A DNA stretch of 19,086 nt from an uncultured Chloroflexota bacterium (GTDB taxonomy: Bacteria > Chloroflexota > Anaerolineae > Anaerolineales > Anaerolineaceae), in assembly GCA_902795255.1 (NCBI GenBank), contig CADBKS010000051.1, positions 1 through 19,086 on the forward strand, given 5' to 3'. The translations under genes and the position numbers were made by a program. The notes below the pieces were generated by a model. That model was not told the origin of the DNA. It saw nothing but the letters and a program-made list of their open reading frames with translations, and did no database searches. Position 1 is the stretch's first letter. Every line of letters begins with the position of its first letter. Below are positions 2,704 to 18,714 of the stretch, one piece after another.

Positions 2704-4668
2704 ATGGACCTGAAAAGAATTTTCTTACTGACTGTCATGATCTGCGCCGTGCTTTTCGGCAGCGGCGTGTATTCGTCCGAAGCCGTTTCCGGCAGCGGAC
2801 TTTTGGATCCCGATCGGATCCCGGCACCGGCTGAACTGCCTGCCGAACCTGTAAAAAATGAAGGGGACGTCTCCCTTTCGAATGCCATGTTTGTCATTTC
2901 CGAGGGTGCGGACGGCCTGACAAAACCGAGCCAGGACGACGGGATGCGCTTCATCGAACCGCCGGAAGTCCTTCACGGCGGGGAGACCGGCGTGTCCGGT
3001 TTGAATCCCGGAAACAATGGCATTGAGGATCCGGGTTTCCGTTATGTGGAACCGCCGTGGTTCCTTGAAAACCCCGATTCGGATTTCTTTGAACTGACCC
3101 AGCCGGAGTACGGCAAGACCGTGACGAAGAAACCGGTCACCTTCCGCTGGTCATACGGCCGGAGCTCCGATGACTGGGACCTGGATGTTAATTTTGAACT
3201 GACTGTCACCATCTCAAGAAACGGCTCGACCGATGAATATACCTTCAATGTGCCCGGTACTTCCTGCTCCAAGGGTGTGTGCAGCTGCAAGGTCAATGCG
3301 GAACTTGGCAATAAAAACGCGACCGTGACCTGGTATGTGACCGCATATGTGACGGTCGGCAGCCATGTGGAGACGATTATCTCGCAGGGCTCCAATTTCA
3401 ATCTGAAGTTCAGCTCCCCGGCTCCGACGCCCAAACCGAGCTACCGGCCGGAAGAACCGATCCTGAAGGAGCCGAACGCGACGCTCTACAGCCGTGATAT
3501 GGGGTTTTACTGGTACCCGTCCGCAAATGCCGAATATTACGCCATTGACTGGTGGAATGACCGGGGCAACAGCGGTACGCTGCACCAGAATCAGACCGAT
3601 TCGACCTGCAAGCTGAACCTCTGCATCGTCAAGACGACCCTGCCTTCTGAAGGCAATTACAGCTGGCAGGTCACTGCGAGCAACGCCTACGGGTCCACGG
3701 TCTCTGAGACGTGGAGCTTCAGGGTCGTTTCTTCACAGCTCCGGGCTCCGTCACCGTATATGCCGAGCGGTTCGATCACCACACAGTCCAATATTCCCTT
3801 TGAATGGGAGAATATTGAAAGCGGTGTCACGCAGTATCGGATCCAGGTCGTGGATAAATACACCGGCAGCGCACGGCTGGATTCCTGTTTCAATGTGAAC
3901 GGGATGTACAAGGGCAACGGCGTGTGCTATCAGGTGACGGATCTCTCCCTTCCCACCGGCTATTACAGCTGGCGTGTGAAGGCGAAAAACAGCACTGCCG
4001 AGTCTCAGTGGTCCGCCTGGCTGGATTTCTATGTCTACGGGGCCGGATATGTCACTCCTTCCGTCAACACTGTTCCGACACCGGTCTATCCGGTCTCTGT
4101 GATCAGTGAGGTGAACCCGCATTATGAGTGGAAATCAGTGACCGGTGCGGGGTATTACCAGCTGAACCTCTATGATGCCTCCGGAAAGAGCCTGATGGAC
4201 GTGACGGTTCCTTCATCCTACTGCTCCTCCGGGACCTGTTCCTATACGCCGAATGCCTCCCTTACCGGGAACAGTACCTACCGCTGGATCGTTTCCGCCT
4301 ACGGGAGCAATGGCAGCTACTGGGGATACGCGGAAGCATCCTTTACGGTCGGTGTGATCACGCTGCAGCAGGGGATCGTCTTTATCACGCCGGAAAACAA
4401 CGGCTATCTGGATCCGAATACGCACAAGATCATCTGGTCCGATCTGGGTGCCGGTGTGAGTATCTTCCGTATTGAGATCAAAAATGCGTCGGGTTCCCCC
4501 ATGCTTCAGGCGGATCTGACCCGTGAGAACGCGCTGTGCGACGGGATCACCTGCTCCATTCAGTTCAGGACGATCCCCTCAGGGAAGAACTATAAGCTGA
4601 CCGTGACGCCATATTCGGGAACGGCATCCGCGGGAACCCCCGCCGAGCTGACCTTCAGCGTCCAGTAA
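2704..4668 (+). CDS. Secreted protein with FN3/Ig-like repeats, each carrying a close Cys pair
   Basis: This is a 654-aa exported protein of unknown function. The ATG is preceded by AAAGGAGG at ideal spacing. Residues 1 to about 27 are a signal peptide. A low-complexity N-terminal region holds two related motifs, RFIEPP (82-87) and RYVEPP (113-118). From about residue 130 to the end there are five beta-sandwich-like repeats of 93-114 residues. Each has a short Cys pair (C188/C193/C195, C302/C307, C395/C408, C507/C512, C612/C617) followed by a Y/W-S-W-x-V strand typical of FN3-like folds. A Pro-rich linker (239-255) separates the first two repeats. No C-terminal sorting signal or membrane segment is visible. 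It is divergent from the protease and ends at a terminator. An adhesin or polysaccharide-binding role is plausible but not shown. Confidence 0.85.
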   Translation: MDLKRIFLLTVMICAVLFGSGVYSSEAVSGSGLLDPDRIPAPAELPAEPVKNEGDVSLSNAMFVISEGADGLTKPSQDDGMRFIEPPEVLHGGETGVSGLNPGNNGIEDPGFRYVEPPWFLENPDSDFFELTQPEYGKTVTKKPVTFRWSYGRSSDDWDLDVNFELTVTISRNGSTDEYTFNVPGTSCSKGVCSCKVNAELGNKNATVTWYVTAYVTVGSHVETIISQGSNFNLKFSSPAPTPKPSYRPEEPILKEPNATLYSRDMGFYWYPSANAEYYAIDWWNDRGNSGTLHQNQTDSTCKLNLCIVKTTLPSEGNYSWQVTASNAYGSTVSETWSFRVVSSQLRAPSPYMPSGSITTQSNIPFEWENIESGVTQYRIQVVDKYTGSARLDSCFNVNGMYKGNGVCYQVTDLSLPTGYYSWRVKAKNSTAESQWSAWLDFYVYGAGYVTPSVNTVPTPVYPVSVISEVNPHYEWKSVTGAGYYQLNLYDASGKSLMDVTVPSSYCSSGTCSYTPNASLTGNSTYRWIVSAYGSNGSYWGYAEASFTVGVITLQQGIVFITPENNGYLDPNTHKIIWSDLGAGVSIFRIEIKNASGSPMLQADLTRENALCDGITCSIQFRTIPSGKNYKLTVTPYSGTASAGTPAELTFSVQ

Positions 4669-4902: not shown

Positions 4903-5118
4903 CTATCTTGAGCCTGACACCGAACGGATTCCGCCTTGCGGATCTGCTTTGACACGCAGCTGCATGGGGAGAGAGAGACCGTCGGCCGTCTTCTCATTTT
5001 TCTCATAAATCAGGAGCAGTTCGCCCTTGGCGTTTTCGGAGACTTTCGGTTTCACGCCTTTGTAGAACGGATAGTTTTTGTAGACTTCCCGGTTTACTGT
5101 GTCAACGATACTGCTCAT
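4903..5118 (-). CDS. Small protein of unknown function, last gene of the ftsZ operon
   Basis: This is a 71-residue protein starting MSSIVDTVNREV. An in-frame ATG lies four codons earlier at 5130, but the later start at 5118 has GGAG six bases upstream while 5130 has no clear ribosome site. The protein is basic and soluble, with no signal or membrane segment. An N-terminal amphipathic helix is followed by a YxGxKPKV segment and alternating hydrophobic strands (ELLLIYE, PMQLRVKAD), and it ends in SGSR. It begins 14 bases after the ftsZ stop on the same strand, so it is surely co-transcribed. I do not recognise a named family. The clean ribosome site, codon use and tight spacing argue that it is real. 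Confidence 0.7.
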   Translation of the reverse strand: MSSIVDTVNREVYKNYPFYKGVKPKVSENAKGELLLIYEKNEKTADGLSLPMQLRVKADPQGGIRSVSGSR

Positions 5119-5132
5119 CGCTTTCTCCATTC

Positions 5133-6476
5133 TTACATGCGGCGGCGCAGGAAGGTGGGTGTGTCGAGATCGACGGTTTCCAGTCCGCTGCGTTTTTCGG
5201 AGATATTTCTAGATGTAGATTCGATGCCGCTGAGTCCGAGCGGTTCCATGATGGTGTCAAACGCGGCATTGGCTGCCGGTGACGGGGTGTAGCTCGGGGT
5301 ATCAAGCGGTTCGGTCGGGATGATCCGTTCGGAAGCGGTCTTGTAAGAGACGGTTTCCGGAACACTGTAGGCCATCGCCGGTTCAGGTTCCCGTTCCGGT
5401 TCCGCAGGTGCGGGGGCGGCTGCCTGAAGGTGTTCATTATAGACACCGGCGTTCACGGATTCGCTGCGGCCTGCTGCCTGGGCGACGGTTTCGGCTTTCA
5501 GCGGTGTGGAGGCGATGCCGGTGATGATCAGGATGATCTGGACTTCGTCCTTCATGTTCGGATCCACGATCTGACCGGGGATAATCTCCGCGCTGTTCCC
5601 GGAGAACTGCTGCAGGTGTGAGAGCCCTTCCATGACTTCGCCGAAGGAAAGGTCTTCACCGCCGGTGAAGTTGGCGATGATGCCGGTGGCATTTTCGATC
5701 GGAAGGTGCTCAAGGAGCGGGTGGTTCAGTGCCTGGTAGAGCGCTGTGGCGACTTTGTCCTCACCCTTGCCGTAACCGATGGAAAGGAGCGAGCCGCCGC
5801 CGTTTGCCATCATGTGGCGGATGTGGGAAAAGTCCACGTTGATCTCACCGGTGCCGGAAAGCAGCTGGGTGATGCCCATGATCCCCTGGCGGAGAACGTC
5901 GTCCGCATAAGCGAAGGCTTCACGCAGGGTGATGTTGGACGGGGAGACCTTCAGAAGCTGGTCGTTCGGGATGGTGATGAGTGTATCGCAGTGCATCGCG
6001 AGTTTGGAAAGGCGGCTGCGGGCGTTGGTGATGCGGCGGCCGGCTTCGAAGGAAAACGGGGTGCTGACGACTGCGATGGTGATGGCGCCGAGTTCGCGGG
6101 CGATCTGCGCGGCAACGCTGATCGATCCGGATCCGGTGCCGCCGCCCATGCCGGCGGTGAGAAATACGATATCTGCGCCGCTGAGTGCTTCGCGCAGTAC
6201 ATCTTCAGATTCCATGGCGGCTTTTTCGCCGACTTCCGGCCTGCCGCCGGAACCCAGCCCGTTGGTAAGCTGCGGGCCCATCAGGATCTTCGTGTTGGCA
6301 TTGCAGCGCTGCAGTGCCTGCAGATCCGTATTGGCGGCAATGAACTCAACGTCGTCCACGCCGTAACCCATTGACAGCATCCGATCGACTGCATTGCAGC
6401 CGCCGCCGCCCAAACCGATGACTTTCATGACCGGTTTGTTATAAACAATATCCTGCTGATCGTAATAATTTTCCAT
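5133..6476 (-). CDS. ftsZ: Cell division GTPase FtsZ
   Basis: FtsZ is the tubulin-like GTPase that polymerises into the Z-ring at midcell. The 447-aa protein shows the nucleotide-binding GLGGGGCNAVDRM near the N-terminus, AANTDLQAL at 48-56, the tubulin signature GGGTGSG at 111-117, PFSFEAGRR at 140-148, and the T7 synergy loop GEINVDF with Asp215. A variable linker rich in Pro, Ala and Glu (about 325-430) leads to the conserved C-terminal peptide DTPTFLRRRM, the expected docking site for membrane tethers. The ATG at 6476 has GAGAGAGG just upstream; an in-frame TTG at 6491 overlaps the previous stop and is less likely. The neighbours are not ftsA/ftsQ or mur genes, so this copy lies outside a classical dcw cluster. 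Its C-terminal GTPase half looks Chloroflexota-like. Confidence 0.97.
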   Translation of the reverse strand: MENYYDQQDIVYNKPVMKVIGLGGGGCNAVDRMLSMGYGVDDVEFIAANTDLQALQRCNANTKILMGPQLTNGLGSGGRPEVGEKAAMESEDVLREALSGADIVFLTAGMGGGTGSGSISVAAQIARELGAITIAVVSTPFSFEAGRRITNARSRLSKLAMHCDTLITIPNDQLLKVSPSNITLREAFAYADDVLRQGIMGITQLLSGTGEINVDFSHIRHMMANGGGSLLSIGYGKGEDKVATALYQALNHPLLEHLPIENATGIIANFTGGEDLSFGEVMEGLSHLQQFSGNSAEIIPGQIVDPNMKDEVQIILIITGIASTPLKAETVAQAAGRSESVNAGVYNEHLQAAAPAPAEPEREPEPAMAYSVPETVSYKTASERIIPTEPLDTPSYTPSPAANAAFDTIMEPLGLSGIESTSRNISEKRSGLETVDLDTPTFLRRRM

Positions 6477-6487
6477 AGGGCCCTCTC

Positions 6488-7858
6488 TCAATCTCCCTGG
6501 TTTTGCAGGCTGACGGTCTGTATTGTACAGCCCCTGTCCCGCAGCTGACGAAGCATGTAGGCCGGGTAAAGAGCCTGGTCGTCGATCATGATGACATTTT
6601 TAGACGCCAATGCTTCGTTCAAATCGTTTCCGGAAGCACAGTTGTGAAGTTTGATATACTGCCGGATCACATTCAGTTGTTCTTCGGTGAACAGGCTGTT
6701 CACCTCCGGAAGGAGAAAATATTCCTTCAGGCTCTCCCCCTGAAACAGAATTTTTCCCAACTGTTTGAATATAGTTGCAAGATTCGTGCCAACTCTTTTT
6801 ATTATCGAAAAGAAATTAAAATTTCTTAAGGATCGGTATTTTTCCCGCAGACCCTGCAGAAGGTCCGTGCGGGGCTCCGGTGTGAGTTTCGGTTCGGTCC
6901 CGAACAGATTGCCGGAGATGCCTTTTTCCGGGACCGCTGACTGGCTCAGCGATTCGGTGGAAGGCAGTTTGTAGACGCAGCAGGAGAGAATATAGGAGGG
7001 AACCTTTCCCTCGCCCTTGAGATTGACTTCCTGGAGCAGGTTCAGAATATTCAGGTACTGCTGCTTGGATTCTTTTGTCACAACGTCGAAAATGCCGGCA
7101 TTCGCGTCCCACATTCCCGCATTCATCAGGAGCAGCGGTACGCTTTTGCCGATCTCCTTCTTCAGGATCTCCTCATACCAGCTGTAAAGGTAAAAGCCGC
7201 GGTGGTCCACCTGGGCGTCTGCGTAGGGTACGGATGCCGGATATGCGGACGGACCTGCCTCGTTCCATGTGATCGGGTGCCGGTTCAGGCAGGCGGATGC
7301 GGAAAACACCATGTTCGAAAGCATGGATTCGCTGCATTCTTTGCGGATCATTTTGATGGCTGTGCGCAGAAATGCCAGATCCCAGTAGTCGCCTCCCGGT
7401 TCCAGAAGCGGGAAGAGCGGGATCACCTTTTCGCGGATGCAGACATTCGCGTAATCGGCATAGCGGCGGACGAAGCGCCGGACCAGATCCGGTTTGATCC
7501 AGTCTTCGGGTGCCCAGGAGCTTTTCATGTTCGGGCGGTTGAAGAACTGTACCATATGGATCCCGATGCTGTGGAAATAAGCCATCCGCTGCTGGAAGAT
7601 CGGCAGCGCGGAAGGCTCTGAAATGGAATCATTCAGAACAACGATCGGCTCAATGCGCGCTTCGCGAAGGCGGATGATGAAGTTTTCGGGGATCTCTCCG
7701 GTTTCGGGAGCATAGATGACCAGCCAGCTGGTGCCGGCGGCCTGGAGTTTCGGAAGCCAGTAATCAAGGCTCGGGTCGTCAAAATGACCGGAATCCTTAT
7801 AATAGTGAAATCCGAGCTTTTTCGATTTTCTGTTTGCTGAAAAGCCGTATGCTTCCAT
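6488..7858 (-). CDS. TIM-barrel-like, glycosidase-related protein of unknown function
   Basis: This is a 456-aa cytoplasmic protein without signal peptide or membrane segments. Residues about 10-290 have the alternating strand/helix pattern and wording of a glycoside-hydrolase-like (beta/alpha)8 barrel: GFHYYKD at the start, WLVIYAP, PIVVLND, MVQFFNRPN, VIPLFPLLEPGGDY, VPLLLMNAGMWD. Glu/Asp residues at strand ends could be catalytic, but no specific GH family signature is clear, so it may be a non-enzymatic sugar-binding barrel. Residues about 295-456 form a separate, mostly helical region. The start at 7858 is chosen because GAGAGAGGAGAG lies directly upstream and the predicted transcript start (about 7871) excludes the earlier ATG at 7879. 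Its stop lies 11 bases before the ftsZ ATG, so it is translated from the same mRNA. Confidence 0.7.
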   Translation of the reverse strand: MEAYGFSANRKSKKLGFHYYKDSGHFDDPSLDYWLPKLQAAGTSWLVIYAPETGEIPENFIIRLREARIEPIVVLNDSISEPSALPIFQQRMAYFHSIGIHMVQFFNRPNMKSSWAPEDWIKPDLVRRFVRRYADYANVCIREKVIPLFPLLEPGGDYWDLAFLRTAIKMIRKECSESMLSNMVFSASACLNRHPITWNEAGPSAYPASVPYADAQVDHRGFYLYSWYEEILKKEIGKSVPLLLMNAGMWDANAGIFDVVTKESKQQYLNILNLLQEVNLKGEGKVPSYILSCCVYKLPSTESLSQSAVPEKGISGNLFGTEPKLTPEPRTDLLQGLREKYRSLRNFNFFSIIKRVGTNLATIFKQLGKILFQGESLKEYFLLPEVNSLFTEEQLNVIRQYIKLHNCASGNDLNEALASKNVIMIDDQALYPAYMLRQLRDRGCTIQTVSLQNQGD

Positions 7859-7877
7859 CTCTCCTCTCTCTCTAACC

Positions 7878-7906
7878 ATTTAATGGTGTTGCAATAAATA
7901 TGCCAA
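7878..7906 (-). promoter_or_regulatory. Candidate sigma70-type promoter of the ftsZ operon
   Basis: On the minus strand TTGGCA (7906-7901) and TTAAAT (7883-7878) are separated by exactly 17 bases. Predicted transcription would begin near 7871, giving a 13-base leader with the ribosome site. The -10 has two mismatches to consensus, so this is a moderate call. Confidence 0.45.
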
Positions 7907-8108: not shown

Positions 8109-8154
8109 CAATGCTGGGCTGTTTTCGGCGTTTCAGCCCTGAAGGAGCGTTGTT

Positions 8155-10230
8155 TTGGAAATCATCAATACTGTTTTGGGAAAACCGCTGGGTTGGATCA
8201 TGTATTTCTGCTATAACCTGGTTCAGAATTACGGTGCGACCATCATCCTGTTTACACTGATCTCAAAGATCATCCTGCTGCCGATCTCGCTGATGGTCCA
8301 GAAAAATTCCATCAAAATGGTGAAGCTTCAGCCGGAGATCGATGAGATCAAAAAACTGTATGCCGGAGATAAGGAGCGGATCGGGGAAGAGCAGTATAAG
8401 CTTTTTGAGCGTGAAGGCTATAATCCGGGTATCGGCTGCCTGCCGACTTTTATTCAGATCCCCATCGTTCTCGGGCTGATCCAGGTGATCTATCACCCGC
8501 TGCAGCACCTTTTCCATGTTTCTAAGGATGCAGCCGCCTCGCTGATCGAACTGGCCGGGAAGACACTCGGAACAGAGATCACCGGGAACTCCGCGGAACT
8601 GAAAGTGATCGAAGCCATCCAGAACGGCGGGTTTGCGGAAGCTGCCGAAAACTCCGGACTGCTTGCAGCCTCAACACTTGAAAAGATCAAAGCGATGCAG
8701 CTTGACTTTTTCGGGATCCGCCTGTCGGAGATCCCATCCCTGAAGCAGCCCGGGATCCTTCTCCTGATCCCCGTTATTTCCGGGCTGAGTGCGCTTGCGC
8801 TTTGCCTTTATCAGGACCGTGCCAATGTTCTGCAGCGCGAACAGGGTAAGCTCCAGCAGTGGGGGATGACGATCTTCCTTGTCCTGTTCTCGCTTTATTT
8901 CACATTTCTCGTCCCGGCAGGGATCGGCCTTTACTGGATCTGTTCCAACCTGATGGCGATCGTGCAGCTGATGATCCTGAATAAGATCTACGCTCCGGAA
9001 AAATATATCGATTACACGGCCCGCAATGCTCAAAAGGCTCAGGAAGCCGACAACAGCGAAGAGGCTGTTGCCCGCAGAGAAGCGGAGCGAAAGCTTCAGC
9101 TTCGGGAACGTGATGACATTGACCGCTTTTACAACACCCCGAACAAGCTGGTGATGTTCTATTCCGAAAAGAGCGGCTTCTACAACTATTTCGCCGAGAT
9201 CATCGAATATCTCCTGAAGCATACGAAAATCGTGATCCATTATGTGACGGGGGATCCGAATGACGCCGTGTTTCAGACAAATGAGCCGAACCTGGTCCCT
9301 TATTATGTCAGTGACCGGAGCCTGGGGACGTTCTTTGCGCAGCTGGATGTCCCGATCGTTGTAATGACGATGCCCGATTTGCAGACCTATCACATCAAAC
9401 GTTCGGTCGTCCGCAGGGATATTGAGTACATTTATGTGTTCCACGCGCTGATGAGCACCACGATGGCATACCGCAAAGCGGCTTTCGACCATTTCGATAC
9501 GATTTTCTGCGTCGGTCCGTACCAGATCCGTGAGATCCGGGAAAATGAAAAGAAATACGGGCTGAAACCGAAGAACCTGATCGAACACGGTTACGCCCAG
9601 CTGGACCGGCTGCTCCGTGAGCATGAGAACCTGCCGGAAAGCGATCATGAGCATCCGATGATCCTGATCGCCCCTTCCCACCAGCCCGGGAACATCATGG
9701 AAAGCTGCATCGATCAGATCATTGACCGGCTGTATGACGCCGGATATAAGGTGGTCGTCCGTCCGCATCCGCAGTTCGTCAAACGCAATCCGGAGTTTAT
9801 GCCGGCACTGGAAGCCCGTTATGCGGAAAAGACCGGCGACCGGCTGGTATTCGAAACCAATTTCTCTTCCCATGCTTCGATCTATTCGGCAGATCTGCTG
9901 ATCACGGACTGGTCCGGGACGGCATTTGAATATACCTATGTTACAAAACGGCCGACGCTGTTCATCAATACGCCGATGAAGGTCATCAATCCGGAATATG
10001 ACCAGTATGAAAATAAGCCGATGGAGATCACCTTCAGAAAGACCTGCGGGATCTCGATCGATCCGGAAGAAGTGGAAAATATCGCGGACCACGTGGCTGA
10101 GGTATTCCGCCATTCGGATGACTACAGGCAGACGATCGAATCCTTTATGAAGGAAAATGTGTACAATATCGGCCGCAGCGGCCAGAACGGCGCGAAATAT
10201 ATCGTATCCAGACTGATCCGTAAATCCTGA
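8155..10230 (+). CDS. YidC/Oxa1 membrane insertase fused to a CDP-glycerol glycerophosphotransferase-like domain
   Basis: This 691-aa protein joins two known domains. Residues 1 to about 285 are a Gram-positive-type YidC/Oxa1 core without a P1 domain. It shows the first membrane segment with Lys38 in place of the usual groove Arg, then SLMVQKNSIKMVKLQPEI, YNPGIGCLPTFIQIPI at 89-104, and C-terminal segments ending VPAGIGLYWICSNL. Residues 286-325 are a charged, probably coiled linker. Residues about 330-690 match the CDP-glycerol:poly(glycerophosphate) glycerophosphotransferase (TagF-like) family: FHALMSTT (His430), IAPSHQPGN (His509), VVRPHPQ (Arg536/His538) and ITDWSGTAFEY (Asp585). The start is TTG with GAAGGAG seven bases upstream. 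It is first in the surface-polymer operon and is not next to rnpA/rpmH, so it is probably not the housekeeping YidC. Domain calls are strong; the combined function is inference. Confidence 0.88.
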   Translation: MEIINTVLGKPLGWIMYFCYNLVQNYGATIILFTLISKIILLPISLMVQKNSIKMVKLQPEIDEIKKLYAGDKERIGEEQYKLFEREGYNPGIGCLPTFIQIPIVLGLIQVIYHPLQHLFHVSKDAAASLIELAGKTLGTEITGNSAELKVIEAIQNGGFAEAAENSGLLAASTLEKIKAMQLDFFGIRLSEIPSLKQPGILLLIPVISGLSALALCLYQDRANVLQREQGKLQQWGMTIFLVLFSLYFTFLVPAGIGLYWICSNLMAIVQLMILNKIYAPEKYIDYTARNAQKAQEADNSEEAVARREAERKLQLRERDDIDRFYNTPNKLVMFYSEKSGFYNYFAEIIEYLLKHTKIVIHYVTGDPNDAVFQTNEPNLVPYYVSDRSLGTFFAQLDVPIVVMTMPDLQTYHIKRSVVRRDIEYIYVFHALMSTTMAYRKAAFDHFDTIFCVGPYQIREIRENEKKYGLKPKNLIEHGYAQLDRLLREHENLPESDHEHPMILIAPSHQPGNIMESCIDQIIDRLYDAGYKVVVRPHPQFVKRNPEFMPALEARYAEKTGDRLVFETNFSSHASIYSADLLITDWSGTAFEYTYVTKRPTLFINTPMKVINPEYDQYENKPMEITFRKTCGISIDPEEVENIADHVAEVFRHSDDYRQTIESFMKENVYNIGRSGQNGAKYIVSRLIRKS

Positions 10231-10275: not shown

Positions 10276-10533
10276 ATGAATTTTCTTGCAGTACTGTTTT
10301 TTGTGTGTTGTTTTGTGATGTTCGGCTCTTTTGCCCCCGCATCCGCGTATATTGATCCGGCAACGACTTCTTATGTGCTTGAACTGGTCGTGGGCGCCGT
10401 GGTCGTCGGCGGTGCCGCCCTGGGCTATTACTGGCGGAAGCTGCGCAAAAAGGTCAGCAAAACGGAGGAAAAAGAAACCGGTGTTTCTGTGGAAGAGCAG
10501 CTTTCCGGTCTTGACGATGAGGATGAAGACTGA
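10276..10533 (+). CDS. Small exported membrane protein with AYIDPA motif
   Basis: This is an 85-aa protein behind an AAGGA ribosome site. Residues 1-24 form a signal peptide (hydrophobic core, then APASA). The predicted mature end begins AYIDPATTSY and is followed by a second hydrophobic segment (about 33-51), a basic stop-transfer stretch (RKLRKK) and an acidic tail ending DDEDED. Similar YIDP-x-x-x-S small membrane proteins are, from memory, often found next to surface polysaccharide or sulfatase-like genes; no function is established. Its stop overlaps the start of the downstream LtaS-like gene by 11 bases, which points to translational coupling and a possible complex. It lies 45 bases after the YidC-fusion gene. 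Confidence 0.78.
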   Translation: MNFLAVLFFVCCFVMFGSFAPASAYIDPATTSYVLELVVGAVVVGGAALGYYWRKLRKKVSKTEEKETGVSVEEQLSGLDDEDED

Positions 10534-12307
10534 GAAAATGAGCCGGGAGCTTTCGTTTTCCGCAAAATTGAAAAAGTTGTTCGCAGGCAGGCGCCCCTTT
10601 GGCAGGCGTCTGCTTCTTGCTTTATTTCCGGCGCTTTCGCTCAGTTTCACACTGTTTTTCTTCGGTCCGCTGGACCTGAGCTGCATCAGCCGGAGCTATA
10701 TCTCCTGGTCACCGCTGTCGATCCTGCCGATAACCGCGGCCGTAATGGGCGCGGTCTTCGCGGTCCTGCTGCTGGCTGCGGCTGTTCCGGGCGGTCATAT
10801 CCATGCTTTTCTTGTCTCGGTTTACACCGGGCTTTCCGCTGCCTTTTACCTGCAGGGCGCGCTGCTGAATTCCAACCTCGGGACGATGGACGGGCATACG
10901 GTCAACTGGCCGAGTTTCAGCACCAAAATGCTTTTGAATCTCGCGGTCTGGTGTGTTATCCTGCTGGTGCCGCATCTGATCCACTATTTCAACAACCGTG
11001 TCTGGCGGGGAGCCGTCATGCTGGTCTGTTCCGCGCTGGTGCTGATGCAGGGCGTCTCCCTTGGCGTCAAGCTTGCCGACCAGGCTGCGTATGACAGGAG
11101 CCGTCCCGAAAGCTACTACATTTCCAACGAAAACATCCTGAATGTCGGAACGAAAAACAATGTCGCGGTTTTTCTTCTGGATACAGTCAGTGATAAAGAC
11201 ATTACGGCGATGCTGGAAAAGTACCCGGATTCGCTGAACCTTTTCCACGACTTTGTGAGATATGAAAACGCGAACTCGCATTATATGTTTACGGTGCCGT
11301 CTCTGGTCAATCTGCTGACGGGCCGTGAATGGGACTGCGAGCATGAAACCGTCGCGGATTATATGGAGCAGGCATGGAAATCGGAGCGGGCGGCTGCGTT
11401 TTACCGTGAGCTGGCTGACCGCGGGTATGTGCGGAATATCTACATGCTGCTCCCCGAAGCGGCATCGGATCCGTCTGTGCTGCTGGATGCCTTTTCAACA
11501 CTGAAGCTTGCGAATAAGGATACGAAAATCGACCGGAGCGCTTTTGTAAAACTGATCAAGCTCTCCTTTTACCGCTATTTTCCGATGATGATGAAGCCCT
11601 TTTTTGTGATCTATACTTCGGATATCAGCAACCTTGTCACGCGGAACGATGCCATGACCAGTGAGTGGGACTTCGTCACCAGAATGAATGAAGCTCCGCT
11701 TGCTGCCGGCAGTTACGAAAATGCCTTTTTCTTCTATTATCTGCAGGGTTCTCACCTGCCGTACCGTCTGGATGATCGCGGACGCATGATCAACAGCAAT
11801 CTGGCGCCGGAGTATTTCACCAATTACTCGGAGAAGGAAGATCAGCTGGCGGGTTTCTTCTATCTGATCGGGGACTATATCCGGCAGCTGAAGGAAATGG
11901 GTCTTTACGATCAGACCGGGATCATTATCCTGGCGGATCACGGCAATAACCAGGACCGTGACGCGGACCATCAGCCGATCTACCTTGTAAAAATGCCCGG
12001 AGAAAAACGGGATGCGATTGAGATCCGTTCCGCTCCTGTCACGATCCAGGACAGCTTTCAGGCGGATGTGATGGCTATGGTCGGAAATACCGGCTTCGAA
12101 TGGGGAATCCCCTCCGCTCAGGTTCCCGACGAACCTGCGGAACGCTGGACCCGTGTGTATGCCAAGGATGAGGATTATCCGCTGCTGAGGAACAAGTATT
12201 ACAATGTGATGCGGGAATACCGCTACACCGGTGACGGTGACTGGCTGATCGAAAGATGGCGTGAAGGCGTTTTCGAAACGGTCCCGATGATCGACAGCTA
12301 TTATTAG
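10523..12307 (+). CDS. Membrane-anchored sulfatase/LtaS-like phosphotransferase
   Basis: This is a 594-aa protein of the alkaline-phosphatase superfamily. Members such as LtaS, phosphoglycerol transferase I and phosphoethanolamine transferases move a phospho-head-group from lipid to a surface polymer. About five membrane segments (residues 22-195) precede an extracytoplasmic catalytic domain. Candidate metal and active-site residues are visible: Asp220 in VFLLDT, nucleophile Thr257 in MFTVPSLVNLLTG, His411 in GSHLPY, and Asp472-His473 in LADHGNN. The chosen ATG at 10523 overlaps the small AYIDPA gene by 11 bases; ATG 10538 is an alternative start. The frame extends open to 10331 but that part lies inside the small gene. 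The substrate could be a phosphoglycerol, phosphoethanolamine or phosphonate group; a true sulfatase is less likely because no Cys/Ser-x-Pro-x-Arg motif is seen. Confidence 0.85.
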   Translation: MKTEKMSRELSFSAKLKKLFAGRRPFGRRLLLALFPALSLSFTLFFFGPLDLSCISRSYISWSPLSILPITAAVMGAVFAVLLLAAAVPGGHIHAFLVSVYTGLSAAFYLQGALLNSNLGTMDGHTVNWPSFSTKMLLNLAVWCVILLVPHLIHYFNNRVWRGAVMLVCSALVLMQGVSLGVKLADQAAYDRSRPESYYISNENILNVGTKNNVAVFLLDTVSDKDITAMLEKYPDSLNLFHDFVRYENANSHYMFTVPSLVNLLTGREWDCEHETVADYMEQAWKSERAAAFYRELADRGYVRNIYMLLPEAASDPSVLLDAFSTLKLANKDTKIDRSAFVKLIKLSFYRYFPMMMKPFFVIYTSDISNLVTRNDAMTSEWDFVTRMNEAPLAAGSYENAFFFYYLQGSHLPYRLDDRGRMINSNLAPEYFTNYSEKEDQLAGFFYLIGDYIRQLKEMGLYDQTGIIILADHGNNQDRDADHQPIYLVKMPGEKRDAIEIRSAPVTIQDSFQADVMAMVGNTGFEWGIPSAQVPDEPAERWTRVYAKDEDYPLLRNKYYNVMREYRYTGDGDWLIERWREGVFETVPMIDSYY

Positions 12308-12318
12308 AATGAGGAAAA

Positions 12319-13458
12319 ATGGATTCTTCTGTATTTATCTCTTTGCTGAATGAGAAACTGGGCATCCGGTTTTATGCGGGTGTTCCGGATTCACTGCTGA
12401 AGAGCCTGTGCAATACCCTGTATGAAAAGTGTGCAGGACAGGGCAATTTTTATGTCTGCGCGGATGAAGGCGCCGCGGCGGCACTGTGCGCCGGACATTT
12501 TCTGGCTTCAGGGAACCCCGGCATGGTCTATATGCAGAACAGCGGGATCGGCAACGCTGTAAACCCGATCGCATCCCTGCTCGACCGGCGGGTCTATGGG
12601 ATCCCTGTCCTGTTTGTGATCGGCTGGCGCGGTGAGCCCGGGGTAAAAGATGAACCGCAGCATGTTTTCCAGGGGGAGATCACCTGCGAGCTGATGGATA
12701 CCCTGCAGATCCCGTATTTTGTGCTGACAGCCGATATGACGGAAAATGATGTGGCTGAACGGCTCTCCGGATTCGCAGCCCTTTTTGCGGAGGGAAAATG
12801 CGCCGCTGTCATCGTGAAAAAGGGCGCCCTGACCGGCGGAAGTGAGCTCCGGTTCAGCAATGACAATCTGATGAAGCGGGAAGACGCGGTGCGGATCATC
12901 GCTCATTCAGCGGATGACCGGGCTGTGTTTGTTTCGACAACGGGGAAAACATCCCGCGAGCTGTTTGAGATCCGCGCTGCTGACGGCAGCGGACATCAGC
13001 GTGATTTTCTGACCGTCGGCTCCATGGGACATGCGGACATGATCGCGCTCGGGATCGCGCTGGAAAAGCCGGACCGTTCCGTTTACTGCCTGGATGGAGA
13101 CGGTGCTGCCCTGATGCATCTGGGCAGCCTGTTCCAGATCGGTGCGGTCGGCCCGAAGAACCTGATCCATGTCGTTTTCAATAATGAAGCGCATGAGAGT
13201 GTCGGCGGGATGCCGGTGACGAATACTGCTGTCCGTTTCGCACAGACCGCGCTGGATGCGGGATACCGTCAGAGCTTTTTTGTCCGTACCGAAGAAGAAC
13301 TCCGGCAGGCCCTTGGCAAAGCCGCGGACGGACCGAAACCCTGCCTGATCGAAGCGGCCTGCGCGGTCGGTTCACGTCCGGATCTGGGACGCCCGACGAC
13401 CACACCGCAGCAGAACCGTGATGACTTGATGTGCTGGCTGAATATAACCGAAGGCTGA
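12319..13458 (+). CDS. aepY: Phosphonopyruvate decarboxylase (ThDP-dependent)
   Basis: This 379-aa enzyme decarboxylates 3-phosphonopyruvate to phosphonoacetaldehyde, the step that pulls C-P bond formation forward in phosphonate (for example 2-aminoethylphosphonate) biosynthesis. The PYR half carries the catalytic Glu50 in CADEGAAAA, then YMQNSGIGNAVNP and IGWRGEPGVKDEPQH, which are hallmark stretches of this family. The PP half has the ThDP/Mg motif GDG (260-262) to NN (288-289) and HESVGG. The length is normal. GAGG lies four bases before the ATG, and the gap from the LtaS-like gene is only 11 bases, so it is in the same operon. The related sulfopyruvate decarboxylase is the main alternative. 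The partners PEP mutase and AEP transaminase are not in the window. Confidence 0.9.
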   Translation: MDSSVFISLLNEKLGIRFYAGVPDSLLKSLCNTLYEKCAGQGNFYVCADEGAAAALCAGHFLASGNPGMVYMQNSGIGNAVNPIASLLDRRVYGIPVLFVIGWRGEPGVKDEPQHVFQGEITCELMDTLQIPYFVLTADMTENDVAERLSGFAALFAEGKCAAVIVKKGALTGGSELRFSNDNLMKREDAVRIIAHSADDRAVFVSTTGKTSRELFEIRAADGSGHQRDFLTVGSMGHADMIALGIALEKPDRSVYCLDGDGAALMHLGSLFQIGAVGPKNLIHVVFNNEAHESVGGMPVTNTAVRFAQTALDAGYRQSFFVRTEEELRQALGKAADGPKPCLIEAACAVGSRPDLGRPTTTPQQNRDDLMCWLNITEG

Positions 13459-13545: not shown

Positions 13546-14118
13546 TCAGGAGCGGAACTGCCGCCATCCGCTGATCTCATCTTCCAGGGTGTTTGCCGCG
13601 GGCTCATCGGTCTGCTCTTCTTCTGCCGGCTGAGGCTCTTCCCGGAGCGGATCCGGATTGCGGAGCGACCAGTTCCGCCAGTGCAATACCGAAACAGCGG
13701 TTCCGGCCGCCGCGGGGATCAGAAAAATACCCGCGTATGCCGGGAGCAGCACTTCCAGCGTGTCCCGGTCAAACTCGAAGAGAATGATCACCAGTATGAT
13801 GACGACCAGCAGCAGTGCGGTGCAGTAAGCCATCAGAACGATTTTTTTCTTCCGGATGATCCGGAAAAGCAGTGCCGCGGCCAGTGTACACAGGACCGCC
13901 GGGATGAGAATGTCCAGCAGGTTTTTCCAAACCCTTGACAGGCTCGGAAAAGCAGACTCAAAAAGGATCGTGATGCGGTTGCTGACCGCGAAATTCAGGA
14001 AAAGGATCCCGATCGCAAGAAAGAATGAATACATCAGGTCCATGCTCTGCAGTCTGCCGTCCTTTGTGAAAAGGAACATGTGTTTCCAGGTCGTTTGCTG
14101 ATTCTTTTCTTTCTTCAT
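13546..14118 (-). CDS. Four-TM membrane protein of unknown function
   Basis: This is a 190-aa protein with a basic cytoplasmic N-terminus (MKKEKNQQ), four clear hydrophobic segments at about 26-47, 64-85, 90-113 and 120-145, and an acidic Pro/Glu-rich tail. The ATG at 14118 is preferred because AGAGGA lies just upstream; the frame stays open to 14160 but that part runs through the terminator hairpin. I do not recognise the family. It is the last minus-strand gene of the ABC importer locus, separated from the binding-protein gene by a terminator, so it is probably expressed by read-through at a lower level. A link to the transporter is possible but unsupported. Confidence 0.75.
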   Translation of the reverse strand: MKKEKNQQTTWKHMFLFTKDGRLQSMDLMYSFFLAIGILFLNFAVSNRITILFESAFPSLSRVWKNLLDILIPAVLCTLAAALLFRIIRKKKIVLMAYCTALLLVVIILVIILFEFDRDTLEVLLPAYAGIFLIPAAAGTAVSVLHWRNWSLRNPDPLREEPQPAEEEQTDEPAANTLEDEISGWRQFRS

Positions 14119-14130
14119 GGGTCCTCTTTG

Positions 14131-14163
14131 AAAAAATCCGGCGCGGGGAGATCCCCGCACCGG
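14131..14163 (-). terminator. Terminator between the binding-protein gene and the four-TM protein gene
   Basis: Minus-strand reading gives CCGG-GCGGGG pairing with CCCCGC-CCGG (one mismatch), then ATTTTTT. It lies 25 bases after the binding-protein stop and before the ribosome site of the next gene, so it may act as a partial terminator. Confidence 0.8.
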
Positions 14164-14188: not shown

Positions 14189-15379
14189 TTATTTCAGTTC
14201 CTCTGCATAGTAGTTGTAGAAGTCCTGAACGTCCAGGTAATTATAATTCACAAATTCCAGATCGCACGGGAGGGCTTTGATATCTTCAAAGCTGTACTGG
14301 TTCCATTCCATCGCGTCCACGCTCTTGCGGACAGGATAGCAGCCCATGCGTTTGACCCAGGCATCGTAGCCGGCACCCTTGCCGTCTTCGCCGCCGAGAA
14401 CATACATGGCATACAGGCGGGCCGCTGCCGGGTTATCGGTCTTGGAGAAGATGTAGATGAATTTCGGTTTGCCGACGCCGTTGAAGCTCATTGTGCGGAC
14501 GGTATCGACGGTCTCACCGAGGTCGAGGGCATCCCCGTGCTTCAGGCTGGAGGAGAAGCCGATGACCGGGTTCTCAGCGGTGGATTCGTTGACTGCGGCG
14601 ATGACTTCATCCCCGTCGTCGATCTCAATGTGGTTGGTCTGCAGGAAGCGGTACAGCCATTCATAACCGGCGTTGTTCGGTTCGACATCGAAATCATCCG
14701 GGTAGGTGTATTCAATATCGGTGCCGTACTTCTGGCGGTATTCTTCTTCAAGCAGGTCGGAGTGCTGGACCAGGCTGGTGATCATGGAGGAGAAGGTGAG
14801 GTTGGAAACCGGATGCGCGACCAGCGTGTAAACAGAGGTCCCGTCTTCCTTCATCTCAACAAGATCCCACCAGCTGGTGATCGGGCAGCCATCCGGGAAG
14901 GCAGTTGTGTTGTAGTACCACACATCCACTTCCAAGGTGATCGGCAGGCCGAATTTGGTGTATTCGGGCAGCAGGTCGCCTTCAAAGGCATCCGGGAAAT
15001 AAGCAAAAACATAACCTTTGTTGTACCAGTCAAGGTAAATGTTGCCGGTCGCATCGCTGTTGATGATGACGTCAACATACGGGGAGCCTTCGTATTCAAG
15101 CGGAATCTTTTCTTCGATGGCGTTGGCCTTGATCTTGGTCCCTTCGGCCATGATGCCGGGATAATCTTCCATGAATTTGGCAACGGAACCGCTGTTGGAA
15201 TAAGCGACCAGCGTCTTGCCCGCTTCGGCTTCTTTCAGGGCTTCCTGATAGAGTTCATCCATGGTCATATGGATGTAATCGCTCTCGTCTCTTACAACGA
15301 GAGATTCCTGGGCGCTGACAGCAGCGGCCAGCCCGAGCGCCATCGTGAGCGCGAGAACAACCAGCAAAAGTTTCTTCAT
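14189..15379 (-). CDS. ABC importer extracellular solute-binding protein (Fbp/AEP/spermidine class)
   Basis: This 396-aa protein captures the substrate for the importer encoded upstream. The start at 15379 has AAAGGAG six bases before ATG; earlier in-frame ATGs lack this. Residues 1-23 form a signal peptide ending VSA before Gln-Glu, with no lipobox Cys. The mature part begins with TLVAYSNSG, typical of the first lobe strand of FbpA-like proteins, and has the hinge-region VWYYNTTAF followed by TSWWDL, as in iron, phosphonate and polyamine binders of this class. The pair of Tyr could bind a metal but also occurs in non-iron members. Absence of a lipobox is unusual for a monoderm host. The substrate is undetermined. 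Confidence 0.88.
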   Translation of the reverse strand: MKKLLLVVLALTMALGLAAAVSAQESLVVRDESDYIHMTMDELYQEALKEAEAGKTLVAYSNSGSVAKFMEDYPGIMAEGTKIKANAIEEKIPLEYEGSPYVDVIINSDATGNIYLDWYNKGYVFAYFPDAFEGDLLPEYTKFGLPITLEVDVWYYNTTAFPDGCPITSWWDLVEMKEDGTSVYTLVAHPVSNLTFSSMITSLVQHSDLLEEEYRQKYGTDIEYTYPDDFDVEPNNAGYEWLYRFLQTNHIEIDDGDEVIAAVNESTAENPVIGFSSSLKHGDALDLGETVDTVRTMSFNGVGKPKFIYIFSKTDNPAAARLYAMYVLGGEDGKGAGYDAWVKRMGCYPVRKSVDAMEWNQYSFEDIKALPCDLEFVNYNYLDVQDFYNYYAEELK

Positions 15380-15447
15380 TTTTTTCTCCTTTACTTTATT
15401 TGCAACTCTTTTCATCAGAGTCTTTCACCCTATGATCTCCGCTTCTT

Positions 15448-17283
15448 TTATCCGAAGCTTTTTACGATATCTGCCTTGAACACGTATTTCGCAATCAGGT
15501 AGCAGACGGAAATCAGCAGAATCATGCAGACCGAGCTGGCTGCGGCCAGCTGATAGCACCCCATGCTGGTGTAGGAAAAGGTCAGGTAGGAAAGGGTCGT
15601 GTTTTTCTCATTGATCACCAGGGAGATCAGGTCGAATTCCTTGGCGATGCTGATAAATGAGAGGATGAACCCGGACATGAACCCGTTCTTTGCGATCGGG
15701 AAGATGATCTGAGCCATTCTCCGGAAGAATCCGGCCCCGTTGATGGACGCGGCTTCCTCCAGTTCCGTGCTGATCTGCAGCATTGTGGCGGAACCGGCTT
15801 TGCTGGCGTAGGGAAAATATTTCACGACACTGATCAGCAGGATCAGCAGGAAGGTCCCGTACAGAGACGGGATCAGCCCGCCCAGTTTCGGTTTGTTGAA
15901 CATTGCCACGTAGACCGCGGAGAATGCGACTGCCGGGATCAGATAGGGGATAAACACCAGCTGGTCGATCGTCCGGCCGTACCATTTGCCGCGCCCGCGG
16001 ACACTGATATAACCGAACAGCTGCCCCATAAAGGATGCGATCACCGCGCCCAGCACACCCAGCTTGACCGTGTTCATGATCGCCCGTGTAAATTTCGGGT
16101 TGCGCAGTACGCCCGGTTCGTAGTTGATGTACGGGTAGGATTCCTCTTCGGTCCCGATCCAGTTGTGGAGCGTGAGATTGTCCAGCGTGATGCCTTTGAC
16201 CGGGGAGATCTGGAAGCTTTCGATGATCAGACTGGTGATCGGAATGATCAGCGCGATCAGCAGGAAAATGCAGACCAGAAGGAACATCGGGATCCGCCAT
16301 TTGCCGAGCATCAGGTCAACGCTGCGTCCGCCCTTGCCGTTGATCGTGGAATAGGACTTCCGGGTGCCGATGAGTTTGTCATTGACAAAAATACAGCCGG
16401 CAGAAAGGAGGATCATCAGAATGGCGATCGCGTAGCCGACACCGGACATACCGGTGCTGATCTGGTCATGCAGACGGGTGGAAAGGGTATAGTATTTTAC
16501 CCGGGTCCCAAGGTAGGACGCGACAGAATAGCCGCCCATCGCCTTGCTGAGCGTCATGATCGTAGCGGAAAGGAATGCGGGCATGACCAGCGGCAGCGTG
16601 ATCTGCATGACGATCGTCTTTTTGCTCGCACCCTGGATCAGCGCCATTTCCTCAAGTTCAGAGTTGATCGTGCCCAGGGAGCCCGCGAGCATGATGTAGG
16701 TGAAAGCGTAATAGTGCAGTGCCAGAACACAGACCATCGCGAAGGGCCCGTATGCGATCCAGTCCGGAACATTCCAGCCGAAACCGTACAGAATACCGGG
16801 CGAGCCGCCGAGCGTGTTCCGGAAAATGGAAAGCCATGCCTGGGATTTGCACCAGGACGGCATCATATAAGCGATCATGATCAGGAAGGAAAGGATCTTT
16901 TTCCCCGGAATGTCGCTGCGGACGACCAGCCAGGCGAGGATCGCTCCGAGCGGGACCGCGACGAGACAGGCACAGACCGAAACGACAAGTGAATGCCCCA
17001 GCGGGATCCAGAACATGGATTTTGCCATCTTCCCGCTCAGCAGGTACTGCCAGTAATAAATGGACCAGGTCCCTTCTGCGACTTTTGCGCGGCGGGCCGC
17101 GGTCGCATCAAGGACCAGCGTCTGTTTGATCAGGGAGACCAGCGGGACAACGACGAGAACGACCAGTATGACCAGCGCGATCAGGGTGAGCAGATTGAAC
17201 GGATTGCAGAGGACGCTTTTGATCTGGTTCTTCAGCCGGACCGCGGGATCCCCTTTCTGAATGACCTTTTGGGTTTTACTCAT
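15448..17283 (-). CDS. ABC importer permease, two fused MetI-like domains (FbpB-like)
   Basis: This 611-aa inner-membrane subunit forms both halves of the transport channel. It has a basic cytoplasmic N-terminus and about 12 hydrophobic segments in two homologous halves. Each half ends with an EAA loop that contacts the ATPase: ELEEMALIQGASKKT in the first and ELEEAASINGAGFFRR in the second. Fusion of two permease domains in one chain is typical of the FbpB/ThiP-type transporters (iron, thiamine and related). The ATG follows GGAGG at good spacing. The gene lies 32 bases after the ATPase stop and 68 bases before the chosen binding-protein start, in the usual operon order. Confidence 0.93.
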   Translation of the reverse strand: MSKTQKVIQKGDPAVRLKNQIKSVLCNPFNLLTLIALVILVVLVVVPLVSLIKQTLVLDATAARRAKVAEGTWSIYYWQYLLSGKMAKSMFWIPLGHSLVVSVCACLVAVPLGAILAWLVVRSDIPGKKILSFLIMIAYMMPSWCKSQAWLSIFRNTLGGSPGILYGFGWNVPDWIAYGPFAMVCVLALHYYAFTYIMLAGSLGTINSELEEMALIQGASKKTIVMQITLPLVMPAFLSATIMTLSKAMGGYSVASYLGTRVKYYTLSTRLHDQISTGMSGVGYAIAILMILLSAGCIFVNDKLIGTRKSYSTINGKGGRSVDLMLGKWRIPMFLLVCIFLLIALIIPITSLIIESFQISPVKGITLDNLTLHNWIGTEEESYPYINYEPGVLRNPKFTRAIMNTVKLGVLGAVIASFMGQLFGYISVRGRGKWYGRTIDQLVFIPYLIPAVAFSAVYVAMFNKPKLGGLIPSLYGTFLLILLISVVKYFPYASKAGSATMLQISTELEEAASINGAGFFRRMAQIIFPIAKNGFMSGFILSFISIAKEFDLISLVINEKNTTLSYLTFSYTSMGCYQLAAASSVCMILLISVCYLIAKYVFKADIVKSFG

Positions 17284-17315
17284 GTTTACCTCCGTAAAAA
17301 CGATCAGCCCGAGAC

Positions 17316-18473
17316 TCAGTCTTCTGTCTCGTTCTTATCGCGGGCTTCTGCGTAACGGATCAGCCGGCCGGTCTGTTTGTTGAATACGTTCAGGCGTTTC
17401 GGATCCATCGTTACCCAGACTTTCTGGTTCATATCGTATTTCCGCAGGTCCACCTGCAGCGCAAGATACTGGGTTCCGTTAGTCTCGAGCGTCACGATCG
17501 TTTCAGCGCCGGCGGGCTGGCTGGCATAAACGGCCGCTTCGATGAATTCCGGAGATTTCGGATCCTTCGCGGTGATGTGGACCAGTTCCGGGCGGATGCC
17601 CAGGACGCAGTCAAATTCTTTACCCTGCGGGATCTCTTCTCCCGGTTTGATCGATTCCTTTTCAAAGGTGAAGGTCCCGAGAACGCCGGTGACTTTCAGC
17701 GTGTTCCCGTCATAAAAGCCTTTTCCGTCGATCATGTTGATGCGCGGGCTGCCGATAAAATCGGCGGTTTCCATATCGACCGGATTGGTGTAAAGCTCCT
17801 GCGGAGTAGCGATCTGGGCGATCTCCCCGGCACGGAACAGGGCGACTTTGGTGGACATCGTCATCGCTTCCAGCTGGTCATGGGTCACGTAAATGATCGT
17901 GGTGCCGGTTTCCATATGCAGGCGTTTCAGCTCGACGCGCATATCGATCCGCAGACGGGCATCCAGGTTGGAAAGCGGTTCATCCAGAAGCAGCAGTTTC
18001 GGATTGGAAGCGATCGCGCGCGCGATCGCCACACGCTGCTGCTGCCCGCCTGAAAGCTCGTTGGGGTAGCGGTCTTTGTACTGTTCGATCCGAAGGGTGC
18101 GGAGCGAATCCATGACCCGCTTGTCGATCTCTTCTTTGGAGAGTTTTTTGATTTTCAGTCCGAAGGCAATGTTCTGGTAGACAGTCATGTGTGGCCACAG
18201 GGCGTAGCTTTGGAAAACCAGGTTGAGTCCGCGCTTGCTCGGTTCTTCGAAAAACGCGTTCGGGGCGTCGATCATCTTTACCCCGTCGATCGTCATCGTG
18301 CCGTTCTGCGGTTTTTCCAGCCCGGAAATGACCCGCAGGGTGGTGGTCTTGCCGCAGCCGGAAGGCCCCAGCAGCGTCATAAAATCGCCGTCCTCGATCG
18401 TCAGATTGATATCCCTGAGAACGTGGCTGTCCCCATAGTACTTATCAATATGTTCCAAAACGATCCTGCTCAT
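17316..18473 (-). CDS. ABC importer ATPase with TOBE domain (FbpC/PotA/UgpC-like)
   Basis: This 385-aa ATPase powers the importer. Visible motifs are Walker A GPSGCGKTT (36-44), the Q-loop in FQSYALWPHMTV (Gln88), the signature LSGGQQQ (140-146), Walker B LLLLDEP (160-166) and the switch His in YVTHDQ near 200. After about residue 235 comes the TOBE/regulatory region with FIGSPRINM and LGIRPE, as in MalK/UgpC/PotA-type proteins. The start at 18473 is preferred because GAGGAG lies upstream and residues match the family start; the longer frame to 18665 runs through the promoter and operator. It is first in the operon. Confidence 0.94.
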   Translation of the reverse strand: MSRIVLEHIDKYYGDSHVLRDINLTIEDGDFMTLLGPSGCGKTTTLRVISGLEKPQNGTMTIDGVKMIDAPNAFFEEPSKRGLNLVFQSYALWPHMTVYQNIAFGLKIKKLSKEEIDKRVMDSLRTLRIEQYKDRYPNELSGGQQQRVAIARAIASNPKLLLLDEPLSNLDARLRIDMRVELKRLHMETGTTIIYVTHDQLEAMTMSTKVALFRAGEIAQIATPQELYTNPVDMETADFIGSPRINMIDGKGFYDGNTLKVTGVLGTFTFEKESIKPGEEIPQGKEFDCVLGIRPELVHITAKDPKSPEFIEAAVYASQPAGAETIVTLETNGTQYLALQVDLRKYDMNQKVWVTMDPKRLNVFNKQTGRLIRYAEARDKNETED

Positions 18474-18566
18474 AAAACATTCTCCTCGGTTTACCTTGCC
18501 GGCTTTTTTACCGTTGTTTTGCGGTCCTGCCCGGGCAATAATTTTGATAATGTATAAGGATTGGGA

Positions 18567-18580
18567 CGCAAACGTTTGCG
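18567..18580. promoter_or_regulatory. LacI/PurR-family operator (perfect palindrome)
   Basis: CGCAAACGTTTGCG is a perfect 14-bp palindrome with the central CG and flanking GCAAA/TTTGC typical of LacI-family sites; it closely resembles the PurR box. It sits about 7-20 bases downstream of the predicted transcription start of the ABC operon, an ideal position for repression. No LacI-family regulator gene is in the window. Confidence 0.8.
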
Positions 18581-18594
18581 AAACCTTACCGTAA

Positions 18595-18623
18595 ATTTTA
18601 TTATAGGGAAAAATGATTGTCAA
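18595..18623 (-). promoter_or_regulatory. Sigma70-type promoter of the ABC importer operon
   Basis: On the minus strand a consensus TTGACA (18623-18618) and TAAAAT (18600-18595) are 17 bases apart. An overlapping TATAAT at 18605-18600 has only a 12-base spacer, so TAAAAT is the better -10. Transcription would start near 18587, giving a leader of about 115 nt that includes the palindromic operator. Confidence 0.8.
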
Positions 18624-18714
18624 CTGTAATTCATCATGTGTTTTGTCATCTCTATTGTGTGACACGGATATGATTCTGCTGCCGGGACTGCCGGCGCACT
18701 TTTCCGATTCAGGC

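Follow-up and report, generated by a model that had tools for sequence, protein, structure and literature searches.

A recurrent fusion of YidC with a TagF-type transferase is associated with phosphonate genes and has a re-partitioned counterpart

In the 19,086-nucleotide stretch of gut-bacterial DNA that we analysed (the window), a single stop-free frame at 8155..10230 (+) encodes a 691-aa protein in which the core of the membrane insertase YidC is followed by a TagF-type transferase. TagF itself is counted among the peripheral enzymes, and the locus raises the question of what a YidC fold does when it is joined to such a partner.

A continuous frame joins a YidC core to a TagF-type transferase

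The gene begins with a TTG codon, seven bases downstream of a likely ribosome-binding site (AAGGAG, 8142..8147, +), and immediately 5' of that site lies a GGGCTG...CAGCCC inverted repeat (8116-8139), a possible hairpin. Residues 26-277 (8230..8985, +) form the YidC core, which has five hydrophobic segments, matches PF02096 (60KD_IMP) with 127 bits against a cut-off of 35 and is also over the cut-off of TIGR03592. The transferase domain, residues 329-666 (9139..10152, +), matches PF04464 (Glyphos_transf) with 37.3 bits against a cut-off of 22.1. A preliminary description of this DNA had claimed one continuous frame joining YidC to a TagF-like domain with His, RPHP and DWSG motifs, and this claim is borne out: both Pfam domains are over their cut-offs, and the motifs lie at H430 (9442..9444, +), residues 536-539 (9760..9771, +) and residues 585-588, with the Asp-Trp-Ser of the last (585-587) encoded at 9907..9915 (+). 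Across 34 aligned homologues H430, R536, H538, P539, D585, W586 and S587 are invariant and P537 is nearly so, and we take H430 and the RPHP residues to correspond to the catalytic residues of TagF. An AlphaFold2 model of the fusion (mean pLDDT 88.6, pTM 0.61) contains the helices of the YidC part, and TagF is the first structure matched with both Foldseek and VIA-align 2; profile ranking of the transferase domain places TarL first. The Foldseek matches include YidC structures from B. halodurans and E. coli, and the VIA-align list holds no YidC entry because the transferase domain fills it. The fusion resembles the YidC/Oxa1/Alb3 family in its PF02096 and TIGR03592 matches, its five hydrophobic segments, its groove Lys/Arg and the fold of the B. 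halodurans and E. coli proteins, and it resembles TagF/TarL and their PF04464 kin, including C. difficile CD0244, in its PF04464 match over the cut-off, its invariant His and RPHP residues and the first rank of the TagF fold.

The groove position equivalent to E. coli YidC R366, an equivalence counted by hand along the alignment, is occupied in the window protein by K38 (8266..8268, +), and of the 120 homologues listed, 116 have Lys there and 4 have Arg. The preliminary description had remarked that Lys replaces the usual Arg here with the charge kept, which is correct, but the replacement is not unusual. In 30 stand-alone YidCs from the fetched loci, largely drawn from genomes found with the fusion alignment and in many cases picked up by similarity to the fusion, the residue is Lys in 21, Arg in 6, Glu in 1 and Asn in 1, with one sequence cut short; Lys is therefore ordinary among the stand-alone YidCs of these hosts, and we ruled out that it is special in the fusion.

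Of 7996 candidates scored in a homologue search with the fusion, 2963 proteins reached E <= 0.001. The same two-domain order, which the preliminary description had proposed to look for in other genomes, is recurrent: for all 120 homologues listed out of the 2963 the alignment covers at least 97% of the query, and rather than existing as two separate genes, 103 of the 120 carry both Pfam tags, the other 17 being tagged with PF02096 alone. The closest genome loci belong to uncultured Chloroflexota (L001, 84%; L002, 83%) and to Flexilinea (L003, 75%), followed by Clostridia; one further locus, L008, is assigned by its record to Kiritimatiellae. Named isolates with the fusion among the listed homologues include Clostridium aminobutyricum and Christensenellaceae bacterium NSJ-44. 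Window-type fusions, which we call type A, form one clade in the transferase tree (57 rows, SH-aLRT 94) and in the YidC tree (59 rows, SH-aLRT 100), both of which came from quick searches and have long branches, with two short transferase rows left out. That the titled relatives are mostly metagenome assemblies could be taken to favor an assembly artefact or pseudo-fusion, but the shared domain order of the listed homologues, seven of which are on contigs >100 kb, and the single clade in both domain trees led us to reject this reading, to which we assign almost no probability. The fusion is a genuine, recurrent two-domain protein.

Searches of overlapping genome sets with a 34-row alignment (A1) found the fusion in at least 39 of 196 genomes of the family of G004 (split in two pieces on two contigs in G522 and partial in G564), at least 10 of 250 in the family of G010 (two of them partial), at least 4 of 291 in the class of G010, at least 3 of 121 in the family of G001 and at least 1 of 151 in the phylum of G001; these counts are lower bounds because in many genomes the best few candidates alone were scored. 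A separate YidC is present besides the fusion in nine of the ten genomes behind L001-L010, and the tenth, G004, gave one match only. In the genomes of three Chloroflexota relatives (L018-L020) the separate YidC lies, by eye, between a yidD-like and a jag-like gene.

Partner genes and the phosphonate neighborhood

We compared the neighbors of the fusion in 59 type A loci, comprising the window, L001-L003, L005-L010 and L141-L189, with L004, a duplicate of L147, left out; contig ends truncate a few of these loci, the frame of L178 is broken, and neighbor genes were taken from a longest-ORF caller. The comparison revealed an AP-superfamily partner, a phosphonate link and a reciprocal pair of YidC-AP and YIDP-transferase proteins, all absent from the preliminary description, and it upheld the statement there that the next gene encodes a tiny membrane protein. 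This gene (10276..10533, +) encodes 85 residues with a signal-peptide-like start, an Ala-Ser-Ala, the motif YIDP (residues 25-28; 10348..10359, +) immediately after the predicted signal-peptide cut, one more hydrophobic helix and a basic then acidic tail, and we refer to the protein as YIDP. It was found in 54 of the 59 loci by profile or, where the profile was silent, by motif (Tyr-Ile/Leu/Val-Asp-Pro or Tyr-Ile-Asp-Ile/Ala), the latter of which may add false cases; phmmer alone gives 47 of 59, with L004 removed. YIDP lies 3.7-6.5 kb from the fusion in L006, L008, L010 and L180, and neither profile nor motif found it near the fusion in L007, L145, L177, L185 and L188, three of which have a contig end close by. 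The motif stands either right after a signal-peptidase-like Ala-x-Ala or, in proteins lacking a signal peptide, close to the N-terminus, and, judged from sequence, both forms would put the Tyr end outside. Sixteen loci carry a signal peptidase I gene, which lies next to 16 of the 30 signal-bearing YIDP genes and to 0 of the 24 others; this distribution comes from few clades and from a signal-bearing class set by hand (Ala preceding the Tyr, with 20 or more residues ahead of the motif).

The following gene (10538..12307, +) encodes a 589-aa AP-superfamily membrane protein with five N-terminal helices, identified from its relatives and its model and referred to here as AP. As listed, its ORF began at 10331, which made it too long and overlapped the small gene; that start was rejected and placed at 10538. 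In 49 of the 59 loci AP lies close to the fusion, with a gap of <1.2 kb in 47 and on the opposite strand in L009, and it was not found near the other 10 fusions; some of the loci without AP (10) or YIDP (5) are at contig ends. The AP model (pLDDT 89.6, pTM 0.75) consists of the five helices and an AP-type ectodomain and matches PbgA/YejM best, with EptA and many sulfatases also present among the matches. LtaS resembles AP in having five helices and an AP ectodomain, and it is absent from the best 50 structure matches of the model. Three residues, T252, D467 and H468, are invariant among 26 relatives. Sulfatases have Cys/Ser at the position of the Thr, and the window protein scores 16.0 bits against Pfam Sulfatase, under the cut-off of 25; on these two grounds we rejected AP as a true sulfatase, although some partners elsewhere pass the cut-off (e.g. 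L166, 29.0). A search of PDB sequences with one of the partner AP proteins gave a single weak match, to a sulfatase. The Thr is presumably a nucleophile, which points to phosphotransfer of the EptA/LtaS sort. AP is like EptA and PbgA/YejM in its helices, its ectodomain and its invariant Thr and Asp-His, and unlike them in that the window protein falls below the Sulfatase cut-off and accompanies YIDP and that, in the type B arrangement described below, AP is preceded by YidC. A second YidC-transferase copy, with two AP genes and YIDP alongside, lies in G006 (L200, 3797-9965), outside the 59 counted loci.

The gene run of the window continues with phosphonopyruvate decarboxylase (12319..13458, +; TIGR03297, 443 bits, cut-off 312.5), and no PEP mutase was found in the 19,086-nt window. 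Downstream, on the opposite strand, a binding-protein-like ORF, an ABC permease and an ATPase (14189..18665, -) are of doubtful membership in the system: the ATPase scores 357 bits with UgpC and 312 with PhnT2, the permease 87 with ModB and 80 with PhnU2, the binding-protein-like ORF has no NCBIfam match, and an assignment of these genes as a clear aminoethylphosphonate (AEP) transporter is not supported. Between these genes and the decarboxylase is a 204-aa protein (13546-14160, -) with hydrophobic stretches and a tetraspanin match below cut-off only. On the other side of the fusion the window contains an FtsZ gene (5133-6491, -; TIGR00065, 347.7 bits, over cut-off), whose neighbors, a 463-aa protein without a family match (6488-7879, -) and a 75-aa ORF (4903-5130, -), form no recognized division-gene arrangement, and a 654-aa protein (2704-4668, +) with a signal-like start, repeated Trp-containing segments seen by eye and no Pfam match.

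In L001 and L002 the neighborhood includes a 670-aa protein, an Fe-alcohol dehydrogenase (Fe-ADH) and the decarboxylase, all in the same direction; the 670-aa protein of L001 carries NTP_transf_3, CTP_transf_like and PEP_mutase domains, and the dehydrogenase is probably a phosphonoacetaldehyde reductase. Across the 59 fusion loci, PEP mutase and phosphonopyruvate decarboxylase are each present in 9, Fe-ADH in 5, an AEP-transaminase cluster in 4 (with L185 over the TIGR03301 cut-off), a PhnS2-like binding protein in 12 and a winged-helix nucleotidyltransferase cluster in 21. At least one of PEP mutase, decarboxylase, AEP transaminase and PhnS2-like protein occurs in 23 loci, and no phosphonate gene was found in the stretch examined around the fusion in the other 36. 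For the transporter members tested, the best-scoring profiles are PhnS2, PhnU2 and PhnT2, all below cut-off. Beside the fusion in L171, L173 and L174 are a phosphoserine aminotransferase (tested in L171) and a SerA-like gene (by eye), and the donor there might derive from phosphoserine.

Among the 196 genomes of the family of G004, a PhnS2-like protein is present in 23 of 39 fusion genomes versus 6 of 157 others (Fisher 2e-14), every such match lying under the curated cut-off (0 of 196 genomes over it), and PEP mutase is present in 8 of 39 versus 7 of 157 (Fisher 0.003); one or the other, PEP mutase or the AEP-type binding protein, occurs in 30 of 39 versus 13 of 157 (Fisher 2e-17), with shared descent ignored in all three tests. 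Nine of the 39 fusion genomes have neither. Of the 23 fusion genomes with the binding protein, 13 have it no more than 8 kb from the fusion, and for PEP mutase this holds in 2 of 8; no PEP mutase was found in the genome of the Flexilinea relative G003. These data show a firm association of the fusion with genes for phosphonate synthesis or AEP-type uptake (STATISTICALLY). Some fusion loci resemble the Pnt pathway as outlined in extracts of PMC6697681, in that PEP mutase is fused to PF12804 and/or PF01467 and accompanied by a decarboxylase and an AEP transaminase; in those extracts the later steps are called enigmatic and LicD-like or glycosyltransferases are placed near the loci, whereas in the fusion loci their place is taken by a TagF-type transferase together with an outer AP.

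The four modules in a second partition

In a second arrangement, type B, the same four modules appear as a YIDP-transferase fusion beside a YidC-AP fusion. Four tandem YidC-AP proteins of ~920 residues are followed in G001 (L036) by a 412-residue YIDP helix-transferase protein; the stretch with the four tandem genes is 5586-17135 of L036 (G001:C16), and farther upstream are DltD- and MBOAT-like proteins (by eye). Ten stretches chosen for a free-standing transferase relative (L190-L199) all contain a YidC-AP protein, adjoining in nine and ~5 kb off in L198, and YIDP-transferase proteins were seen in L036 and in this set. In L192 two copies of the YidC-AP/YIDP-transferase pair flank PEP mutase, Fe-ADH-like and decarboxylase-like genes. 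Of 18 YidC-AP proteins, 17 are over the PF02096 cut-off (the exception is L037) and 11 over that of PF00884. All 59 type A loci have Lys (57) or Arg (2) in the groove; neither occurs there in any of the 18 YidC-AP proteins, which have Asn (15), Ser (2) or Gln (1). Type B forms a clade of its own, separate from type A, in both domain trees, in one of which the join between A and B may be false. Unlike other members of the YidC/Oxa1/Alb3 family, YidC is here joined to a transferase (type A) or to an AP enzyme (type B), co-occurs with a second YidC in nine of ten hosts tested and, in type B, is without the groove charge.

Type B was found in 15 of the 196 genomes of the family of G004, three of which have type A too, and by hand count a phosphonate marker is present in 4 of 12 genomes with type B alone versus 9 of 145 with neither type. 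The modules are also joined or separated in other ways. L179 has YIDP and AP in one 756-residue protein adjoining the YidC-transferase fusion. Fused YidC is absent from L014 (Pseudomaricurvus), where the transferase stands free and is accompanied by AP, YIDP, PEP mutase, Fe-ADH and a decarboxylase-like gene. Other free-standing transferase relatives occur in L012 and L013, from groundwater and marine assemblies, each with an adjoining nucleotidyltransferase-like gene (by eye).

Candidate roles of the fused YidC

The preliminary description had suggested that the YidC part could couple insertion of the small partner to polymer synthesis, which would make it an active insertase reserved for YIDP (or AP) that inserts its partner beside the transferase for in-place assembly. 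YIDP is short and has to send its N-terminus across the membrane, which we take to be the mark of a kind of YidC client, and its presence in 54 of 59 loci, the several copies without a signal peptide and the groove Lys/Arg in every type A locus speak for such coupling. The idea is weakened by L014, where the transferase is free and no YidC is fused but AP, YIDP and phosphonate genes are present, by type B, where the charge is lost while the partner retains YIDP, and by the separate YidC that nine of ten hosts own, and we consider it rather unlikely. A YidC domain that is a mere membrane anchor would be a simple gain for a peripheral transferase; however, 26 positions within residues 1-278, including Q101 and W261, are invariant in 34 homologues, which should be beyond the need of an anchor, and YidC is also joined to another enzyme, AP, as a separate clade, so that we regard a mere anchor as unlikely.

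An ordinary teichoic-acid polymerase using CDP-glycerol or CDP-ribitol and carried on a YidC anchor would agree with the PF04464 match and with the first ranks of TagF by fold and TarL by profile. Against it, the annotated neighbor clusters carry phosphonate, nucleotidyltransferase and AEP-type uptake genes, and no CDP-glycerol or CDP-ribitol supply gene was recognized in the annotated part of these clusters. We judge it quite improbable, and the substrate assignment of the preliminary description, a teichoic-acid polymerase, is probably wrong. In contrast to TagF/TarL, the transferase is anchored by YidC or YIDP, and its neighbors suggest CMP-phosphonate or similar donors over CDP-glycerol; a donor of this class is the probable one.

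The loci contain a transferase domain, a YidC core with its groove charge, the partners YIDP and AP and a re-partitioned version of the four modules. We propose, as a reading whose chances we hold to be even, that the fusion forms the inner half of a relay devoted to surface tailoring, which would carry CMP-activated phosphonate or phosphate groups from the cytosol to the surface. A small phosphonate (hydroxyethyl- or aminoethylphosphonate) or a phospho-alcohol would be activated with CTP, and the cytosolic TagF-type domain would take the group off CMP and place it on a lipid or a lipid-linked acceptor. The YidC fold, joined to the inner enzyme in type A and to the outer enzyme in type B, would then pass the loaded lipid or chain across the bilayer or present it, and outside, the AP-superfamily enzyme, with its Thr as nucleophile, would hand the group on to an acceptor at the surface. 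The two faces may be coupled by YIDP, which would have its Tyr end out and its tail in and which is joined to the transferase in type B. The role of the YidC fold as a lipid or polymer mover is the boldest part of this relay and is put forward tentatively. With the same reserve, the fold may have been repurposed twice, from insertase to lipid or polymer mover of a surface phosphonate machine, in type A by fusion to the inner CMP-phosphonate transferase and in type B, where the insertase charge is lost, by fusion to the outer AP transferase, YIDP linking the faces.

Single steps of the relay have precedents. PntC enzymes make CMP-AEP, and the activation of hydroxyethylphosphonate by Fom1 is cited, in the extracts of PMC6697681; for the TagF-like C. 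difficile CD0244, a transfer of phosphothreonine from CDP-threonine is proposed in part of PMC10714395. E. coli YidC scrambles lipids in vitro according to an excerpt of a preprint (PMC10491306), which reports scrambling for insertases generally and therefore does not single out a lipid-moving role for the fused YidC. No account of the YidC-transferase gene set or of its reciprocal version was found in searches of an open-access library, judged by titles and abstract starts of the papers listed. The component domains belong to known families, and the gene set would be a variant of CMP-dependent surface tailoring. For annotation, the database names noted among the listed homologues, membrane protein insertase YidC or YidC/Oxa1, cover YidC only, though the fusion carries a transferase as well. 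The extracts of PMC6697681 call it enigmatic how bacteria attach phosphonates to their surface once these have been activated with CMP, and the gene set supplies candidates for three steps of that attachment: the transfer, the membrane step and the outer step. If the proposal is true, it would bring the YidC fold into envelope chemistry and would make insertase lipid scrambling, as described in the excerpt of PMC10491306, physiologically testable.
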